Below, piece by piece: positions 42,525-51,556 of a stretch of DNA of 64,000 nt. The notes under the pieces are model-generated. The model did not search any database and was not told where the DNA came from. It saw only the letters and a list, made by a program, of their open reading frames with translations. Numbering within the stretch: the first letter of the stretch is position 1; the number at the start of each line of letters is the position of its first letter. The DNA comes from Zoogloea sp. GTDB taxonomy: Bacteria > Pseudomonadota > Gammaproteobacteria > Burkholderiales > Rhodocyclaceae. Location: positions 1 to 64,000 of the forward strand of contig NZ_JAOAUU010000042.1 of the NCBI RefSeq assembly GCF_030157465.1. Reading direction: 5' to 3'. Position numbers and translations under genes: made by a program.

Positions 42525-44351
42525 TCAGGCCCGGTTGCGCCGGTTTGCCGCGAAGAGCGCCAGCGCGAGGATGCCGGTGAGGCTGGCGAGATCGGTGGCC
42601 CCGCCCCCTCCGCCGCCGCCCGAGGACGGGGCGGATGCAACGGTGATGCTGGTGTCGGCGCTGGCCGTGCGCCCGATCGCGTCTGTGATCGTCAGCCGGA
42701 TCGTGTAGCTGCCGGCCGAGGTGGCGGTGAAGGTGGTGCTTGCTGCCGCAGGCGAGCCGAAGCTGCCAGTGGCCGGCCCGCTGATCTGGATCCACTGCCA
42801 GCTCACGGGCGACACGTTGGAAGCTGCGGTGAGGGTGATTGCCGTATTGACGACGGGGGCTGCGGATACCGTGATGCCGGCTGTGGGTTCGAGGGCCAGC
42901 GTGACGGCGGCGGCGGTATTGAGCATGCCGGCTCCGCAGGTAGTGGTGGTGCAGTTGCACTGGTCGTCAGTCGACACGGCGGGGCAGGTGGGCAGGGTGG
43001 CATCGACCGGAAAGGCGGTGGCTGCGCGTTTGATGCGTGCCATCAGCTCGGATTCGCTGAGCAGGGGATTGGCCGCCAGCATCAGCGCGGCCGTGCCCGA
43101 TACCAGCGGCACGGCAAAGCTGGTACCGATCGTTACGTCGTAGGCGCCGGTGTAGCCGTTGCCGAGGGGGCCGTTCAGGCCCTGGTTGGTGGCATTGACG
43201 AAGGGAAACAGGCAGGGCTGGCCGGTAAGGATGTTGACGCAGTTGCCGGCTGGGGCGCTGATGCCGACCTCGGGGCCGAAGCTCGAATAGCCCACCTTGG
43301 TGCCCATGTGGCGGATGCCGGCGACGCCGAGGACGCCCGCGCAGTTGGCGGGCTCTTCGACCGGGCCGGTTTCGTTGCCGGCAGCAGCCACGATCAAGGT
43401 GCCCGCCGCCCTGATTTCGGCGACGACGCTGGTGTAAGCGGCGCTGCAGGTGCCTTCACCGGCCAGGCTCAGGTTGATGACGCGCGCTGGATTCGGGTTG
43501 GCGGGCAGGCCCGGCACCGCAAGGCCGGCGGCCCAGCGCATGCCGGCGATGATGTCCGAGTCGTAGCCACCACATTTGCCGAGGGCGCGAATCGGCAGGA
43601 TGCGGGTGGCGCCGCCCATGCCGGCGATGCCGCGGGAATTGTTGGCTTCTGCGGCGACGATGCCGGCAACCTGGGTGCCGTGCCACGAGCTGTCGTGGGT
43701 TGCAAAGCTGCCGCCGCACATGGCGCGCAGGGTGGCGTTGGCGAGATCGGAGGTGGACAGATAGTCGCCGGGATCCGAGGCGTCGCTGTCACGGCCGGGC
43801 TGGCCGTCGCCGGAATTGAGGTCGTCGAGCACGAAGTCGTAGCCCGGCAACAGTTTGGCGGTCAGATCCTCATGCTCGAAACGCACGCCGGTATCCACCA
43901 CCGCAACCACCACGTTGCTGGCGCCGGAGGTGATGTCCCACGCCGCCTGGGCGTTGGTGGCGGCGGGCTGGGTGGGGCTGGCTGCCTGCAAGTACCACTG
44001 GTGGCTGAACAGCGGATCATTGGGCAGGGCCTTGGCCCGCTTGATGCGGTCGGGCACCGCGTATTCCACGTCGTATTCTCTGGACAGCCTGCTTGCCAGG
44101 GCCTCGGAGCTGATGCCGCTGGCGCGCATTACCTGGAGTTCGGGCGAGGGCTGGCCGAGCATTTTTGCCGTGATGCCGATGCGCTCTCCGAGGCTTTGCA
44201 TCCGGCTTGCGGCCTGGATCTGCTTGAGCGGTGACCCGGCCTTGAGCTTGACGATGACCCGCGCCTCGGGGGCCTCCACGGCTGCGGCAGGGCCGGCGAG
44301 CAGCGCACCCAGCCCCAGCAGGGCTGCGTAAAGTGTGAGACCGGTTTTCAT
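42525..44351 (-). CDS. Secreted S8 (subtilisin-type) serine protease with GlyGly-CTERM-like tail
   Basis: A 608-residue exported protease. Signal peptide residues 1-23, then its own I9-like propeptide ending VEYAVPDRIKRAKAL, then the catalytic domain: Asp in AVVDTGVRFEHEDL near residue 152, His in SWHGTQVAGIVAA near 223, Ser in GTSFAVPLVSGTAA near 410. A following Ig-like/PKD-like segment of about 80 residues is linked by SSGGGGGGG to a hydrophobic helix and NRRNRA at the C-terminus. That arrangement resembles the GlyGly-CTERM sorting signal processed by rhombosortases. The start at 44351 overlaps the stop of the small secreted-protein gene by three bases (ATGA). Confidence 0.87.
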   Translation of the reverse strand: MKTGLTLYAALLGLGALLAGPAAAVEAPEARVIVKLKAGSPLKQIQAASRMQSLGERIGITAKMLGQPSPELQVMRASGISSEALASRLSREYDVEYAVPDRIKRAKALPNDPLFSHQWYLQAASPTQPAATNAQAAWDITSGASNVVVAVVDTGVRFEHEDLTAKLLPGYDFVLDDLNSGDGQPGRDSDASDPGDYLSTSDLANATLRAMCGGSFATHDSSWHGTQVAGIVAAEANNSRGIAGMGGATRILPIRALGKCGGYDSDIIAGMRWAAGLAVPGLPANPNPARVINLSLAGEGTCSAAYTSVVAEIRAAGTLIVAAAGNETGPVEEPANCAGVLGVAGIRHMGTKVGYSSFGPEVGISAPAGNCVNILTGQPCLFPFVNATNQGLNGPLGNGYTGAYDVTIGTSFAVPLVSGTAALMLAANPLLSESELMARIKRAATAFPVDATLPTCPAVSTDDQCNCTTTTCGAGMLNTAAAVTLALEPTAGITVSAAPVVNTAITLTAASNVSPVSWQWIQISGPATGSFGSPAAASTTFTATSAGSYTIRLTITDAIGRTASADTSITVASAPSSGGGGGGGATDLASLTGILALALFAANRRNRA

Positions 44352-44674
44352 CGCAAATCCTTTTTTTGATCGAGATCCAGGTGCCGGATGGAAGGGTCTG
44401 CCCTGAGTGCCGCAATGGCCTTGCTGCAGGCCGGATCGTCGGCAGCACAAAGCAGCTGGTAGGCGTGGCTGCGCTCAGAGATCGACGACACGAAATTCAC
44501 CCTGGCGCCGCTCGTGTTTTTGAGCGCGGTGAGGGTGGCGGGCGCGGGGCCGTCGGTGGGGTCGGCAAAGCCGATGATCACCTGGAGCGGGTGCTGCGCC
44601 TGCCCGGTTCCGGCGCAGGCCGGGGCGCCGAGCACCGCGGCTGCGACGAGTGCCAGCCAGCCGGTTTTTATCAT
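44348..44674 (-). CDS. Small secreted propeptide-like (I9-like) protein
   Basis: A 108-residue protein with signal peptide MIKTGWLALVAAAVLGAPA, then VIIGFADPTDGPAPA, and a C-terminal AIAALRADPSIRHLDLDQKK. The beginning (V-I-I-x-F) and end (L-R-A-D-P-S-I-x-x-L-x-x-D) match the layout of subtilisin propeptides/I9 inhibitors, although no catalytic domain follows. It is translationally coupled to the S8 protease gene. It may be a separate folding chaperone or inhibitor for that protease. Family assignment is by eye and tentative. Confidence 0.65.
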   Translation of the reverse strand: MIKTGWLALVAAAVLGAPACAGTGQAQHPLQVIIGFADPTDGPAPATLTALKNTSGARVNFVSSISERSHAYQLLCAADDPACSKAIAALRADPSIRHLDLDQKKDLR

Positions 44675-46026: not shown

Positions 46027-46040
46027 TTGATCTTGATCAA
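46027..46040. promoter_or_regulatory. FNR/Anr box
   Basis: TTGATCTTGATCAA is a perfect TTGAT-N4-ATCAA FNR site. A possible -10 element TACATT (46065-46070) would place transcription start near 46076, so the site is centred near -41.5, the class II activating position. It is about 86 bases upstream of the start codon of the seven-haem cytochrome gene, implying induction under low oxygen. Confidence 0.82.
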
Positions 46041-46125: not shown

Positions 46126-47097
46126 GTGTTCAGCACGATAAATAGAAAACTGCGTGGAGCTGTGGCGCTGCTGGCCCTGATGGCTGCGCCGCTGGCCTTC
46201 GCCGACGAACCCCCACCGTCCCCCGAAGAACTCGTAAAGATCCAGGCAGCCAACGGAAAATGCCTGGCCTGCCACTCGGAAGCGGGGCTCAAGAAGCCTC
46301 CGAAGGAAGGGCTGGATCTCAAGAAGCTGCGTAGCCACCTGGTTCATCTGGATACCTACACGGAGTCCGACCACGGCCAGATGGCATGCACCAAGTGCCA
46401 CGGCGACGGCTACGACGAACACCCCCACGAAGCCGACGCCAAGGACAGCCTGAGCGAATGCCAGGACTGCCACGCCCGCAAGGCGATGCGCATCGAACGC
46501 CAGTTCGACAAATCGGTGCACGCCGAGAACCTCAGCGAAACCTTCACCTGCGTCACCTGCCACGACGCGCACACCATGACCCTGGCCGCCAAGTTGCGCG
46601 ATCCGCACAAGATCGTGGCCCAGGACAACAAGATCTGTCTCGATTGCCACGATTCGGATCTGGCCTTTGCGAAGATGGCTCCAGACAAGAAAAAGCGGCC
46701 GCCCATCGACGACATCCATGACTGGCTGCCCAACACCCGCCTGCACTGGAAGGCCGTGCGCTGCATCGAGTGTCACACGCCCACCGAAGACAAGCTCTCC
46801 CTCTCCCACGAGATCCAGAACAAGGACAAGGCCGAGAAGAAGTGCGCCACCTGCCACAGCGCCAACAGCTCGCTCAATGCGCGGCTGTATCGCCATCTGG
46901 CCACCGAGGAGCAGAACAAGTACGGCTTCCTCAACAGCGTGATCCTGAGCAACTCGTATGTGGTGGGCGCTACCCGCAACCCCACTCTCGACATGATCCT
47001 GATCGGCCTGTTTGTCGCCACGCTGGCGGGCGTGATCGGCCACGGCCTCGTGCGCGCCATCATGACCCGTCTGCGCCGGAGAAAAAACCATGACTAA
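46126..47097 (+). CDS. Seven-haem membrane-anchored cytochrome c
   Basis: A 323-residue exported protein with a signal peptide (cleavage near AFA-DEP) and seven CxxCH haem sites: CLACH, CTKCH, CQDCH, CVTCH, CLDCH, CIECH and CATCH. A C-terminal membrane helix (about residues 289-310) followed by RLRRRK anchors it to the inner membrane facing the periplasm. The GTG at 46126 follows GAGGAG (46115-46120). The next gene encodes a cytochrome b that overlaps by 8 bases, so the two probably form a quinone-linked complex. It is not a close match by eye to NapC/CymA; it looks like the multihaem part of CbcL-type enzymes. Confidence 0.85.
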   Translation: MFSTINRKLRGAVALLALMAAPLAFADEPPPSPEELVKIQAANGKCLACHSEAGLKKPPKEGLDLKKLRSHLVHLDTYTESDHGQMACTKCHGDGYDEHPHEADAKDSLSECQDCHARKAMRIERQFDKSVHAENLSETFTCVTCHDAHTMTLAAKLRDPHKIVAQDNKICLDCHDSDLAFAKMAPDKKKRPPIDDIHDWLPNTRLHWKAVRCIECHTPTEDKLSLSHEIQNKDKAEKKCATCHSANSSLNARLYRHLATEEQNKYGFLNSVILSNSYVVGATRNPTLDMILIGLFVATLAGVIGHGLVRAIMTRLRRRKNHD

Positions 47098-47704
47098 TCG
47101 CGTTTACATCCTTCACCTGTGGGTCAGGCTGTGGCACTGGGGCAATGCCCTGGCGATCATCGCCCTGTCGATCACCGGCATCAGCCTGCACTTTTCCGAT
47201 CCGAACCTTCCGCTGGTGGAGTTCTCGCTGGCGGCGCGCATCCACAACGTGGCCGGCGTCATCCTCGCCGGGCTGTGGGTGGTCTTCGTCACTGGCAACA
47301 TCGTCACCGGCAACTGGTGGCAGTACATCCCGAAGCCGCCCGGCATCATCAAGCGCTGCCTGACGCAGATGAAGTACTACGGCAGCGGCATCTTCAAGGG
47401 CGAACCCGAGCCCTATCCGCCGACGCCCGAGGTCAATTTCAACGTCCTGCAGGCGCTCACCTACTGGTCGATCATGTACATGGTGCTTCCGGTGGTGATC
47501 CTGACCGGGCTGGTCTTCCTCTATCCCCAGTTCGCCCCCGACAAGCTCTTCGGGCTCGACGGGCTCCTGCCCATCGCGATGGTTCATTACATCGGCGCAG
47601 CCGTGATCCTGTTGTTCATGGTGAGCCACATCTACCTGGGCACGGTCGGGCCCAAGGTTTCCAGCCTGTTCAAGATGATGATCACCGGCTGGTACGAGCA
47701 CTGA
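47090..47704 (+). CDS. Cytochrome b (b561-like) quinone-interacting subunit
   Basis: A 204-residue integral membrane protein with about four helices. His residues suited to haem b ligation are in LWVRLWHWGNA, ARIHNVAGVIL, MVHYIGAA and VSHIYLG. It matches the cytochrome b561/thiosulfate-reductase cytochrome b fold. It overlaps the seven-haem gene by 8 bases, and the pair likely exchanges electrons between the quinone pool and periplasmic haem proteins. Confidence 0.87.
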   Translation: MTNRVYILHLWVRLWHWGNALAIIALSITGISLHFSDPNLPLVEFSLAARIHNVAGVILAGLWVVFVTGNIVTGNWWQYIPKPPGIIKRCLTQMKYYGSGIFKGEPEPYPPTPEVNFNVLQALTYWSIMYMVLPVVILTGLVFLYPQFAPDKLFGLDGLLPIAMVHYIGAAVILLFMVSHIYLGTVGPKVSSLFKMMITGWYEH

Positions 47705-47756
47705 TTCACGTTCCCCAAACCAATAAGTCGTACGTTGTCCTCAAGGAGAAACCCCC

Positions 47757-48107
47757 ATGAAGTTCCGCGTGATTACCCCCCTGATTTCCGGTCTCTGTGC
47801 CTCCGGGCTGCTGCTGTCTGCCAATGCGCTGGCCTTCGACGCCGACGAAGCGCAGGCCCTGGCCAAGAAGGAAGGCTGCCTCAAGTGCCACGCCGTGGAC
47901 AAGAAGAAGGAAGCCAAGTCCCTGACCGAGATTTCCAAGTCGCTCAAGGGCAAGGCCGATGCCGAAGCCAAACTGCTTCATCACCTCACTTCGGGTGAAA
48001 TGGTGAAGTTCGATGACGGCAAGGAAGAGGAGCACAAGGTCATCAAGACCAAGGACAAGGCCGCGATCAAGAATATGACCGACTGGATCCTGTCCCTCGG
48101 CAAGTAA
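47757..48107 (+). CDS. Monohaem class I cytochrome c
   Basis: A 116-residue secreted protein with signal peptide (cleavage near ALA-FDA), one haem site CLKCH and a Lys-rich body; the distal Met ligand is probably in the SGEMVKFDDG segment. It fits a soluble periplasmic shuttle between the inner-membrane module and the decahaem cytochrome, comparable in role to MtoD. An AAGGAG site precedes the ATG. Confidence 0.87.
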   Translation: MKFRVITPLISGLCASGLLLSANALAFDADEAQALAKKEGCLKCHAVDKKKEAKSLTEISKSLKGKADAEAKLLHHLTSGEMVKFDDGKEEEHKVIKTKDKAAIKNMTDWILSLGK

Positions 48108-48171
48108 GCCGTTCAGCAACGGAGCGCCCGACTTGCAGGGCGCTTCGACAAGCGATGTCAGCAAAAGGGAG

Positions 48172-49172
48172 ATGAAAAAAATGAAATTCCTGCGACAGTT
48201 GTTGGCCTCGTGCGCCTTGCTCGGGGCGCTTGTCGGCACCACGGCCGCCGTGGCTGCCGATGCCCCGTCCACGCCAGGCGCCAAGCCACCCGCCAAGGAT
48301 CTGGTCCTCAAGGGCGACGCCAAGTGCACCACCTGCCACGATGAGTCGGACGAGCCCAAGCTCCTGCACATCGGCAAGACCAAGCATGCACCGTGGCCGA
48401 CGGGCGTACGCCCAGCTGCACCAATTGCCACGGCGACAGCGACCTGCACACCAACAATCCGGCCAAGCTGAAAGAGCGTCCGGCCACGGACCGCAGCTTC
48501 GGCAAAAACTCAAAAACGCCGGTCGAGGCCCGCAACGAATCCTGCATCTCCTGCCACAAGAAGGATGCCAAGCGTTCGCACTGGGAAGGCAGCGCCCACC
48601 AGCGCGCCGACGTGGCCTGCACTTCCTGCCACCAGTTGCACACCGCCAAGGACAAGGTTGCCGACAAGCGCACCCAGCCCGAAGTGTGCTTCACCTGCCA
48701 CAAGGAACAGCGCGCCCAGGTCATGAAGCCCTCCCACCACCCGGTGATGGAAGGCAAGGTTGCCTGCTCGGATTGCCACAACTCCCATGGCTCCATCGGC
48801 CCCAAGCTGGTCAAGCGCGATAGCGTCGTCGAGACCTGCTACACCTGCCACATGGAGAAGCGCGGCCCCTTCGTACACAGCCACGAGCCGGTCAATGAGG
48901 ACTGCGGCAATTGCCACAACCCCCACGGCACCGTTGCCGAAAGCCTGCTGAAAGCCCGGCCACCCTTCCTGTGCCATCAGTGCCACACACCGCATGGTGG
49001 CCAGGTCGCCCAGTTGCGGGGCCAGTTGCCGACCCAGCCGACCATCAACTCGAGCGGCAAGTCCGGCATCAACTACACCCAGGCGCGGGGTTGCATGAAT
49101 TGCCACACCCAGGTGCACGGCAGCAACAACCCAAGCGCAACGAATCCGACACCGCAGTTCAACCTGCGTTGA
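48172..49172 (+). pseudogene. mtrA: MtrA/PioA/MtoA-type decahaem cytochrome, apparent frameshift
   Basis: Ten CxxCH sites are present but in two frames. The first frame (from 48172, or Met 48181) gives a signal peptide and CTTCH, up to KTKHA near 48389. Thereafter the reading continues one base earlier, from about 48393, as VADGRTPSCTNCHGDSD and on with CTNCH, CISCH, CTSCH, CFTCH, CSDCH, CYTCH, CGNCH, CHQCH and CMNCH to the stop at 49172. Restoring one base near 48386-48392 would give one 330-residue decahaem protein of the MtrA/DmsE/PioA family. The defect may be real or a sequencing error. Every other residue looks intact. The protein should plug into the MtrB barrel. Confidence 0.82.
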
Positions 49173-49191
49173 TCGACGAGGGGAAATCATC

Positions 49192-51474
49192 ATGAAAACC
49201 TTGCAAACACGCCCGGGTTTCAGCCTCAAGATTGTTGTGCTGGCCCTCCTTGCCGCCTTCGGTTCGGCCCATGCGGCCGATGACGAGATCGCCGCCCTGA
49301 TCCGTCCCGACAGCAGTGTTTCCATCGGCGCTGCCGGCGTGACGGGCGCCGAGAACGAGCGCAGCTTCTTCGGCCAATACAACGGCCTGCGTCGCCAGGA
49401 CGCCTACCTTCTGCTCGACCTGGACGTCATCAAGCGCGACGACGCCACCGGCACCTGGACCACCTTCCAGGGGCGCAACCTGGGGCTCGATACCCGCGAA
49501 ATTCGCTTCGGCCAGCAAAAGCAGGGCGACTGGAAGTATTCCTTCGAATACGACGAGATGATCCGGCGTGACCCGCGCACCATCAACACCAGCCTTGTCG
49601 GCGCAGGCAGCACCGCGCCGGTGGTCTCCCGGCTGGCTACGGCAGGTAGCGGTTCTGACGTGAACCTCGACCTGAAGCGCAAGAACACCACCATTGCCCT
49701 GGAAAAATGGCTGAGTCCCTCGCTGCAGTTCGAGGCCAGCTTCCGGAACGAGGACAAGAACGGTGCCCGGATGTTCGGCAACGGCATGGCCTGCACCTCG
49801 GGCTCGGCGCCGTCTCCCTTATGCACTACCGGCGTAACCCAATGGGCGCTGCTCATGTTGCCCGAGCCGATCAACTCGAGCACCCAGCAGTTCGACGCCA
49901 AGCTCAACTACGCGAGCGACAAGCTGATGCTGTCGGGGGGCTACTACGGCTCGTTCTACAGCAACCAGTATCAGTCGATGGCGGCAAGCATCAACGGTGA
50001 GCTCAGTAACCCCCTGGGAAACCAGATGGGACTCCCCGGCAACGGGCCCGCGCTGGGCGCCGGTTTGCGGGGCATGTTGCAAAACCCCATCGCGCTGCCG
50101 CCGGACAGTCAGGCGCACCAGTTTTACCTGACGGGCAATTACGCGTTCACACCGACCACCAAGGCCAACTTCAAGTACGCCTACACCCACGCTGCGCAGA
50201 CCGACAATTTCTCCGTGTTCGGCGGCGCGCCCGGTGGCCGCAGCGATCTCGGCGCGAAGGTCGACACCAGCCTGTATCAGCTTGGCCTGACGTCGCGGCC
50301 GATCTCCAAGCTGTCGCTGCTGGCCAATGTCCGCTACGAAGACCGCAACGACAAGACGCCTATCGCCTACTACAACGTCGAAGGCAATCCGGCGACTACG
50401 GCGTTCACCAACGGCAACTATTCACCAAAGCGCCTGAACGGCAAGCTTGAAGGCACTTATCAGCTGCCTGACGGCTACCGGGCGACGCTGGGGTTCAATT
50501 ACGAGTCGCTTGATCGGGGCACCTTTGTCAGCACGAATTCCGTTGCCGGTTTGAGTGGCCTGCGCCAGAAGAGCGAGGAAACCGGCTACAGAATGGAGTT
50601 GCGCCGTTCAATGAGCGAAACCCTGACCGGTGCGATCGGCTATTCCAGCAGCCATCGCAGCGGATCGGCCTGGCTCAAGCCGCTGTCCCTGAGTTGTACC
50701 GGCCTGGGTGGCTTGTCCGATGCAGGCCGGGGCGTCATCGTGGGAGATCCGTCCCTGACCTCGATCACCGGTTGTGCCACCTTCAACAACGGTATCTATG
50801 GGGTCAATAACATCTTCCCCTCTTCGATGACTGACCGGCAGCGGGACAAGATCAAGATGAGCGCCGACTGGGCTGCCACCGACCAGCTGTCGTTGCAGTT
50901 CATGGCCGAGTGGGGGCAGGATAATTTCAGCTCTCCGGGCACCAAGGGCCTGAGAAGCAGCTACATGGGCTTCTATGGTGTGGATGCCGCCTATGCCTTG
51001 TCTGAAAACTGGAGGCTCACGGGCTACTGGTCTCGCGGTGATCAGACCATGCACGTGGATCACAGCACGGGTTACCTGGCTGCGCTGCGCAATCTCAGCG
51101 ACAGTTACGGGTTCGGTGTGATCGGCAAGCCCATGACTCGCCTCCAGGTGGGTGGCGATCTGCTGCTCATCGAGGATAGGGACGAGTACAAGCAAAGCGG
51201 CGGATCGACGGCCAACAACAATCTCCTGGCCAATCTTGGCGGCCTTCCCGACGTCACCTTCCGGCAATTCACACTGAAGCTGTTCGGCAGGTACGATCTG
51301 GACAAGACCTCTGCGGTGCGCATGGACCTGATCCACCAGCAAACCAAACTCAACGAATGGACCTGGGGTTACAACGGAACGCCGTTCGTGTATTCCGACA
51401 ACTCCACGGTTACGTTCAGGCCAAGTCAAAGCGTGACTTACCTCGGCGCAACCTACATCGTCGCGTTGCCGTAA
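49192..51474 (+). CDS. mtrB: MtrB/PioB-family outer-membrane beta-barrel
   Basis: A 760-residue outer-membrane protein with signal peptide (cleavage near AHA-ADD) and alternating hydrophobic/polar strands over its whole length, ending in a strand with aromatic and hydrophobic residues as beta-barrels do. It matches the decahaem-associated outer-membrane proteins (MtrB/PioB/MtoB) that sheath an MtrA-type cytochrome. The directly preceding decahaem gene supports this. No Cys pair near the N-terminus like that of Shewanella MtrB is seen. No outer-surface cytochrome (MtrC/OmcA) gene follows; a strong terminator does. Confidence 0.87.
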   Translation: MKTLQTRPGFSLKIVVLALLAAFGSAHAADDEIAALIRPDSSVSIGAAGVTGAENERSFFGQYNGLRRQDAYLLLDLDVIKRDDATGTWTTFQGRNLGLDTREIRFGQQKQGDWKYSFEYDEMIRRDPRTINTSLVGAGSTAPVVSRLATAGSGSDVNLDLKRKNTTIALEKWLSPSLQFEASFRNEDKNGARMFGNGMACTSGSAPSPLCTTGVTQWALLMLPEPINSSTQQFDAKLNYASDKLMLSGGYYGSFYSNQYQSMAASINGELSNPLGNQMGLPGNGPALGAGLRGMLQNPIALPPDSQAHQFYLTGNYAFTPTTKANFKYAYTHAAQTDNFSVFGGAPGGRSDLGAKVDTSLYQLGLTSRPISKLSLLANVRYEDRNDKTPIAYYNVEGNPATTAFTNGNYSPKRLNGKLEGTYQLPDGYRATLGFNYESLDRGTFVSTNSVAGLSGLRQKSEETGYRMELRRSMSETLTGAIGYSSSHRSGSAWLKPLSLSCTGLGGLSDAGRGVIVGDPSLTSITGCATFNNGIYGVNNIFPSSMTDRQRDKIKMSADWAATDQLSLQFMAEWGQDNFSSPGTKGLRSSYMGFYGVDAAYALSENWRLTGYWSRGDQTMHVDHSTGYLAALRNLSDSYGFGVIGKPMTRLQVGGDLLLIEDRDEYKQSGGSTANNNLLANLGGLPDVTFRQFTLKLFGRYDLDKTSAVRMDLIHQQTKLNEWTWGYNGTPFVYSDNSTVTFRPSQSVTYLGATYIVALP

Positions 51475-51494
51475 GCCGGCTTGTCGTAGCAGTA

Positions 51495-51528
51495 AAAACG
51501 CCCCCCGGTGTGAGCCGGGGGGCGTTTT
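51495..51528. terminator. Terminator after mtrB
   Basis: Arms AAAACGCCCCCCGG and CCGGGGGGCGTTTT with a 6-base loop, with A and T runs at its ends. It serves the mtr operon and the convergent ettA gene. Confidence 0.9.
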
Positions 51529-51556
51529 CATTGGGCAGCCACGCTTGCTCCAAAAA

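Follow-up and report, generated by a model that had tools for sequence, protein, structure and literature searches.

A putative Mto/Mtr-type electron conduit of Zoogloea with a two-gene quinone module and an apparently exchangeable MtrAB block

Analysis of a 64-kb stretch of DNA (the window) from a draft genome of the genus Zoogloea (174 contigs, 4.70 Mb) revealed an operon of five genes on the plus strand, encoding a heptahaem c-type cytochrome, a cytochrome b, a monohaem cytochrome c, a decahaem cytochrome c and an MtrB/PioB outer-membrane barrel. On balance, the operon is best read as an Mto/Mtr-type conduit that probably exports respiratory electrons through a two-gene quinone module and has an MtrAB part that appears exchangeable. 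A first-pass annotation made from the sequence had proposed an MtrAB-type conduit with an inner-membrane module of its own; all five genes were confirmed at the positions and on the strand it gave, and the families, haem ligands and gene order described below support that proposal.

The heptahaem protein (46126..47097) contains seven CXXCH motifs, a signal peptide and a single C-terminal membrane helix, placed by hydropathy at about residues 286-304. In profile searches it scored above the cut-off only for general multihaem Pfam models and not for any specific family, and its predicted structure had a mean pLDDT of 50.6. The cytochrome b gene (47090..47704) overlaps it by 8 bases and belongs to PF01292 (82.8 bits, cut-off 30.1), while remaining below the cut-off of the PhsC-like thiosulfate reductase cytochrome b model NF011582 (164.2 vs 204 bits); its product is probably a dihaem subunit bearing the quinone site. 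The top PDB match of the monohaem cytochrome (47757..48107) is 4xxl (E 2.2e-30), the MtoD of Sideroxydans lithotrophicus (PMC4412085). The decahaem gene (48172..49172) is interrupted by a frame slip, and its nine-haem piece alone exceeds the cut-off of TIGR03508 (268.1 vs 192.2 bits), a match carried, as for other multihaem proteins, partly by the repeated haem motifs. The decahaem protein, of the MtrA/MtoA/DmsE type, also matches PDB entry 6r2q chain A (E 2.5e-61), the tenth CXXCH lies in the upstream piece, and the gene is the only copy in the genome above the TIGR03508 cut-off. The barrel gene (49192..51474), whose identity the annotation had made dependent on a family match, exceeds the cut-offs of both TIGR03509 (347.4 bits, cut-off 240.05) and PF11854 (410.4 bits, cut-off 23), and is the only MtrB match in the genome. 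PDB sequence searches with the cytochrome b and with MtrB returned no matches. A hairpin followed by a T run (51494..51528, plus strand, by eye), located 3' of mtrB, is a probable terminator.

Conserved ligands make a haem carrier plausible at each step from the quinone site to MtrA. Besides the CXXCH motifs, which are invariant by choice since the 74 heptahaem relatives were selected for seven of them, seven histidines are invariant in all 74 aligned sequences, enough for seven bis-His haems, and another histidine, located in the membrane helix, shows 96% conservation. Histidines 16, 52, 166 and 180 of the cytochrome b are invariant in 64/64 relatives and would suffice for two haems. In the monohaem protein, H93 is kept in all 53 monohaems encoded near an MtrB of the family and in 35 of the 36 sequences of the seed set, and no methionine is conserved. 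The spacing of 48 residues between H45 and H93 matches that of His47 and His95, the two haem ligands of MtoD, which has a potential of +155 mV (PMC4412085). Like MtoD, the protein is a class I monohaem cytochrome c with predicted bis-His ligation.

In the proposed mechanism, the heptahaem and dihaem b cytochromes would form one complex, a two-gene quinol:cytochrome c oxidoreductase representing a split CbcL/MtoC with the layout of CbcBA. Electrons from ubiquinol or another benzoquinol would enter this pair, pass to the MtoD-like shuttle, and from there reach the cell surface through the decahaem protein inside the MtrB barrel. The likely use of such a chain would be the disposal of respiratory electrons to high-potential acceptors outside the cell. 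MtrA and MtrB would behave as an exchangeable block, found in the genus in two very different versions that are combined with one and the same inner half.

In the genome, which is given as 100% complete, no MenD was found above the cut-off (best 81 vs 244 bits), nor any match to PF02621, which we take to represent the futalosine route (MqnA/MqnD). Since no menaquinone route was found, menaquinone should be absent, leaving ubiquinone or possibly rhodoquinone, and the quinone partner is expected to be ubiquinone or another benzoquinone. In contrast, Geobacter and the CymA of Shewanella oneidensis use menaquinone (PMC4412085 among the sources). With a ubiquinol potential of +100 mV (PMC4412085), the chain could reach only acceptors of fairly high potential. 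The rhodoquinone gene rquA is reported from sparse Rhodocyclales (PMC5953543), PMC13386864 does not name Zoogloea, and our literature search found no paper naming both rhodoquinone and Zoogloea.

A search with the heptahaem alignment yielded 79 distinct loci among the best 80 of 81 matches. The order heptahaem, cytochrome b, monohaem, decahaem, MtrB recurs in all 14 Zoogloea-clade loci (L071-L084; 11 titled Zoogloea and three Proteobacteria bacterium), and is therefore not due to chance; in L084 the heptahaem open reading frame (ORF) is in two pieces. Within the genus, four of the six genomes searched encode both the heptahaem protein and MtrB, and two encode neither. In a sample of 199 genomes of the family, the heptahaem gene was found in 19, one of which (G183, 28% identity) was set aside as weak. 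MtrB (E 1e-3 or better) accompanies it in 15 of the remaining 18 genomes versus 50 of the 181 others (Fisher p 5e-6, a guide only because the genomes are related and not independent), and in two of these 15 (G031 and G151) the two genes do not adjoin.

The five-gene set itself is already known for Zoogloea: a cluster of the same contents was printed in 2021 for a Zoogloea sp. metagenome-assembled genome (MAG) that rose 720-fold on an anode held at +400 mV (PMC8258643). That cluster likewise comprises MtrB/PioB, a DmsE-like decahaem protein, a b-type cytochrome and two c-type cytochromes, one with seven CXXCH motifs, whereas the available text assigns no family to the other three genes and contains no regulation, quinone argument or allele comparison. 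New here are the conserved FNR-type site upstream of the operon, the finding of no menaquinone route, and the in-place replacement of mtrAB suggested below.

The replacement concerns the outer half of the operon. The mtrAB versions divide the Zoogloea loci into group A (the window, L071, L072, L077 and L083) and group B (the remaining ten loci). Mean protein identities within A, within B and between the groups are similar for the heptahaem protein (84, 84 and 83%), the cytochrome b (86, 89 and 86%) and the monohaem protein (84, 81 and 80%), as well as for the ABC-F protein encoded 3' of the operon (96, 98 and 96%; 14 of 15 loci), in contrast to the decahaem protein (90, 88 and 65%) and MtrB (78, 78 and 36%). 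The approximate 5' edge of the divergent block falls within mtrA, no earlier than its second haem motif (48420..48500), and is marked by a drop in between-group DNA identity from 83% to 68%; the approximate 3' edge, where this identity recovers, lies just after mtrB (51474..51540). The 5' edge is similar in the pairs L083/L084 and L077/L073. L083 and L084 are sisters both upstream and downstream of the block; their DNA identities are 88-97% from the heptahaem gene to the start of mtrA, drop to 42-77% across the remainder of mtrA and the whole of mtrB, and are 94-99% beyond. Within group A, identity stays low past mtrB (62-72%), probably owing to misalignment of L071, in which the ABC-F gene starts 1.4 kb after mtrB, compared with about 0.1 kb in the others.

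Phylogenetic trees point in the same direction. Group A occupies one side of a branch in the decahaem and MtrB trees, while the tree of the upstream DNA requires three changes between the versions, with monophyly of A rejected (delta lnL, the difference in log-likelihood, 183; approximately unbiased test p 6e-35), and the ABC-F tree requires two (p 0.013). A family-wide MtrB tree places the two Zoogloea versions in separate supported clades. The simplest reading is that mtrAB has been replaced in place by recombination, and more than once. Merely fast evolution of mtrAB was ruled out by the abrupt change at similar edges between the highly similar flanks of L083 and L084. Chimeric assembly as the sole cause was judged unlikely, because records other than MAGs carry both versions (A in L071 and L083, B in L074 and L081). 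Most loci are from MAGs, and by reasoning rather than computation the four non-MAG records alone would need only one event; the sharpest pair depends on one MAG locus, L084, with its two-piece heptahaem ORF. Trees of MtrA and of MtrB are reported to depart only seldom from the concatenated MtrCAB tree, the variation being found in MtrC and accessory genes (PMC8805035); Zoogloea shows the converse, a variable conduit beside a constant accessory half. Judged from the listings of our literature searches, no paper describing such an exchange in Zoogloea was recognised.

A palindrome of the FNR/ANR type, TTGATCTTGATCAA, is located at 46027..46040, 99 bp upstream of the first start codon. It is the sole perfect match to the FNR/ANR consensus in the window, which has one other site, differing at one position; the chance expectation is 0.73 sites when up to one mismatch is allowed. 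A site with at most one mismatch occurs at the same place in all 13 related loci that cover this stretch (L071 begins too near the gene), is perfect in six, and is the only such site in each locus. An FNR-type regulator is predicted to switch the operon on at low oxygen. Among the loci scanned outside Zoogloea, no site is shared at that position; one-mismatch sites precede the heptahaem or decahaem gene in four of them (L089, L101, L104 and L109), and two-component regulators adjoin some of the clusters.

The first-pass annotation had regarded a dedicated inner-membrane module beside MtrAB as unusual. The module is present, but its rarity did not stand. Stretches around most full-length MtrB matches of the family (excluding fragments, G179, G183, one of the G071 places and almost every place that scored below about 235 bits) contained 82 distinct MtrB ORFs with a length of 600 aa or more, and partners within 5.5 kb were counted by profile, haem number, size and hydropathy. 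An inner module lies near 39 of the 82 (16 CbcL/MtoC-like fusions, 12 heptahaem and cytochrome b pairs, and 11 proteins that are NapC/CymA-like in size and haem count) and none lies within that distance of the other 43; for the 61 MtrB genes with at least 4 kb on both sides, the numbers are 31 and 30. MtrC-like partners were counted 10 times and MtoD-like monohaems 52 times. The N-terminal half of the fusions matches the heptahaem profile in 15/15 cases (E 4e-20 or better, partly via the repeated haem motif), the C-terminal half weakly matches the cytochrome b profile in 14/15 (E 1e-6 to 4e-3; 0.12 in the remaining one), and one tested fusion exceeds PF01292 (35.1 vs 30.1). Two tested CymA-like proteins of the family exceed PF03264.

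In D. aromatica and G. capsiferriformans, mtoC lies together with mtoA, mtoB and mtoD (PMC6295460), and these MtoABCD clusters thus share with Zoogloea the combination of MtoA, MtoB and MtoD with a CbcL-type inner-membrane module. MtoC is, however, a single polypeptide of the CbcL type, while the Zoogloea counterpart consists of two genes and has seven c haems, so that the CbcL/MtoC/MtrH pattern of a multihaem c and a b-type domain on one chain is absent here. Since one-piece fusions fill the same place in relatives and mtoC accompanies mtoABD, the Zoogloea operon appears to represent that design with a split module. In CbcBA and CbcL of Geobacter sulfurreducens, too, a b-type membrane part and a multihaem c part exchange electrons with quinone and periplasmic cytochromes. 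CbcL differs in having nine c haems on one chain, and CbcBA resembles the Zoogloea pair in its layout of separate b-type and c-type subunits; CbcA is a heptahaem protein. With the MtrCAB/CymA system of Shewanella, Zoogloea shares the MtrA and MtrB families. It differs in lacking any MtrC above the TIGR03507 cut-off in the genome and, as judged by eye, any NapC/CymA-family protein outside a nap-like cluster, which contains the only one. Both findings agree with the annotation, which had noted the lack of MtrC and the module in place of a CymA type. No MtrC was seen in the sequence available around the operon in the 14 Zoogloea-clade loci; in two of them this sequence begins no more than 1.2 kb from the operon. 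The heptahaem protein was itself rejected as a CymA/NapC relative (PF03264, 19.1 vs 24.1 bits). In Accumulibacter sp. 66-26 (G031) both module types coexist: one contig (L070) carries MtrAB and a CbcL-like fusion, and a second (L117) encodes the heptahaem protein, the cytochrome b and a molybdenum enzyme.

Sequence cannot settle whether the conduit exports or takes up electrons, as the annotation had stated. Export under anoxia is nevertheless judged somewhat likelier. In its favour count the enrichment of a Zoogloea MAG on an anode (PMC8258643), the finding of no RuBisCO in the genome, and the ten-haem MtrC-type genes beside the same inner module in four loci of relatives (L060, L061, L063 and L089), of which the L063 protein, the only one tested, exceeds TIGR03507 (453 vs 209 bits). 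Several points weigh against the overall reading as an export conduit. Uptake would be equally compatible with the lack of MtrC and with a shuttle of the MtoD type, which was originally described from an Fe(II) oxidiser, and FNR-type control and a nap cluster could likewise be expected in nitrate-dependent Fe(II) oxidation. The multihaem profile matches owe part of their scores to repeated motifs, the likeness to Geobacter CbcBA is one of layout and not of compared sequences, the decahaem gene of this genome is frame-broken, and the pair adjoins other enzymes elsewhere, so it could serve more than MtrAB.

The same machinery could also run inwards, with Fe(II), a cathode or a partner cell supplying electrons through MtrAB and MtoD to the pair, which would reduce ubiquinone, and with nitrate or oxygen as the final acceptor. 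We consider this rather unlikely, although it accords with the absence of an MtrC above the cut-off, the predicted bis-His shuttle, the nap cluster (by eye), the proposed role of MtoAB and MtoD in Fe(II) oxidation (PMC4412085) and the proposal that CbcBA runs in reverse in Seep-SRB2 (PMC10553843). The failure to find RuBisCO, the reported anode enrichment and the MtrC-type genes beside the module in some relatives stand against it.

Export by the window genome itself is called into question by the decahaem gene, which is split over two frames (48172 onward, then 48393-49172) with one and nine CXXCH motifs, the slip lying between haem motif 1 (48325-48339) and motif 2 (48417-48431). The upstream one-haem piece gave no Pfam match alone, a continuous mtrA frame is not present in the genome, and no other MtrA exceeds the cut-off; the conduit might thus be dead or dying here. 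This explanation is unlikely. The remaining coding part of mtrA has dN/dS values of 0.06 and 0.09 against L077 and L083, the only same-allele partners used (L071 and L072 were not included), which indicates purifying selection, and mtrB also looks constrained against them (0.18 and 0.28). All 14 related Zoogloea-clade loci have an intact ten-motif ORF, and the assembly is a draft. Given this selection and the absence of the slip from the 14 relatives, it appears to be recent or a sequencing or assembly error. The slip and the 5' edge of the block are at most about 170 bp apart (window 48325-48500), possibly by coincidence.

The pair also occurs outside MtrAB clusters. In a heptahaem tree of 83 rows (the window, four further sequences and 78 of the 79 loci, L084 being dropped as a fragment), the partners within 6 kb are MtrB in 27 rows, an octahaem protein in 18, an EB_dh-type protein in 11, a molybdenum enzyme in six and none of these in 21, although among the last L131 has an eight-haem ORF missed by gene calling and several contigs end early. 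The pair thus appears to be a portable quinone module and, given its octahaem and molybdenum-enzyme neighbours, is alone no marker of extracellular electron transfer (EET). Of the concern that the gene order might occur only with unrelated functions, nothing was found for the five-gene order, and what remains applies to the pair. That the pair is a general quinol dehydrogenase feeding several periplasmic reductases, its place beside MtrAB being incidental, would accord with these partners but is improbable in view of the strong co-occurrence of the heptahaem protein with MtrB in the family, a single 29-row clade (SH-aLRT 99, quick tree) that takes in 25 of the 27 rows linked to MtrB, and the close or overlapping genes behind one conserved promoter site in Zoogloea. 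The other two MtrB-linked rows (L121 and L124) stand apart on long branches, and in L121 (Noviherbaspirillum denitrificans) a ten-haem version of the protein follows MtrAB.

The octahaem proteins, of about 720 aa, adjoin the pair in 18 loci (L126-L130, L133-L142, L144, L146 and L148) from Bacteroidota, Magnetococcales, Chromatiaceae, Calditrichota and others. Two of them scored 86.8 and 75.6 against TIGR04315 (cut-off 375), and they may represent an unassigned respiratory reductase. In L103, L104, L112, L116, L117 and L120 the pair lies beside a molybdenum enzyme, an Fe-S subunit and mostly a TorD-like chaperone. The L103 enzyme seems ArrA-like though under the cut-off (1019.5 vs 1600 bits) and that of L117 only remotely so (192 bits; best PhsA, 267 vs 694). 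An EB_dh-type protein, assigned to PF09459 in L112, the only one tested, directly follows the cytochrome b in many loci without MtrB (L099, L102-L104, L107-L110, L112-L114, L122 and others). Near the Zoogloea operon, a subtilase with Peptidase_S8 and PKD-type domains (42525-44450, minus strand) occurs in nine of the 15 loci including the window, some of the others being without that flank. Elsewhere the genome encodes two more multihaem ORFs, a 473-aa one in which eight CXXCH were counted by eye (L228:891-2312) and one of 669 aa adjoining a sulfatase-like gene (L227:407-2416).

Tentatively, MtrA and MtrB may constitute a swappable surface cassette, with the inner module, promoter site and chromosomal neighbour fixed, and two deeply diverged versions traded through homologous recombination at common edges, which might serve a change of outside partner or the avoidance of barrel-binding phages; the inner half would operate on ubiquinone, and EET would proceed without menaquinone. 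If whole outer-membrane conduits are exchanged in nature while the inner half stays fixed, MtrAB and the periplasmic shuttle would meet at an interface that tolerates swapping, as designers of EET chassis need, and strain pairs matched in the inner half and differing in MtrAB would allow a direct test of the effect of the conduit on acceptor choice and phage sensitivity. If the chain depends on ubiquinone only, more organisms would be expected to perform EET.

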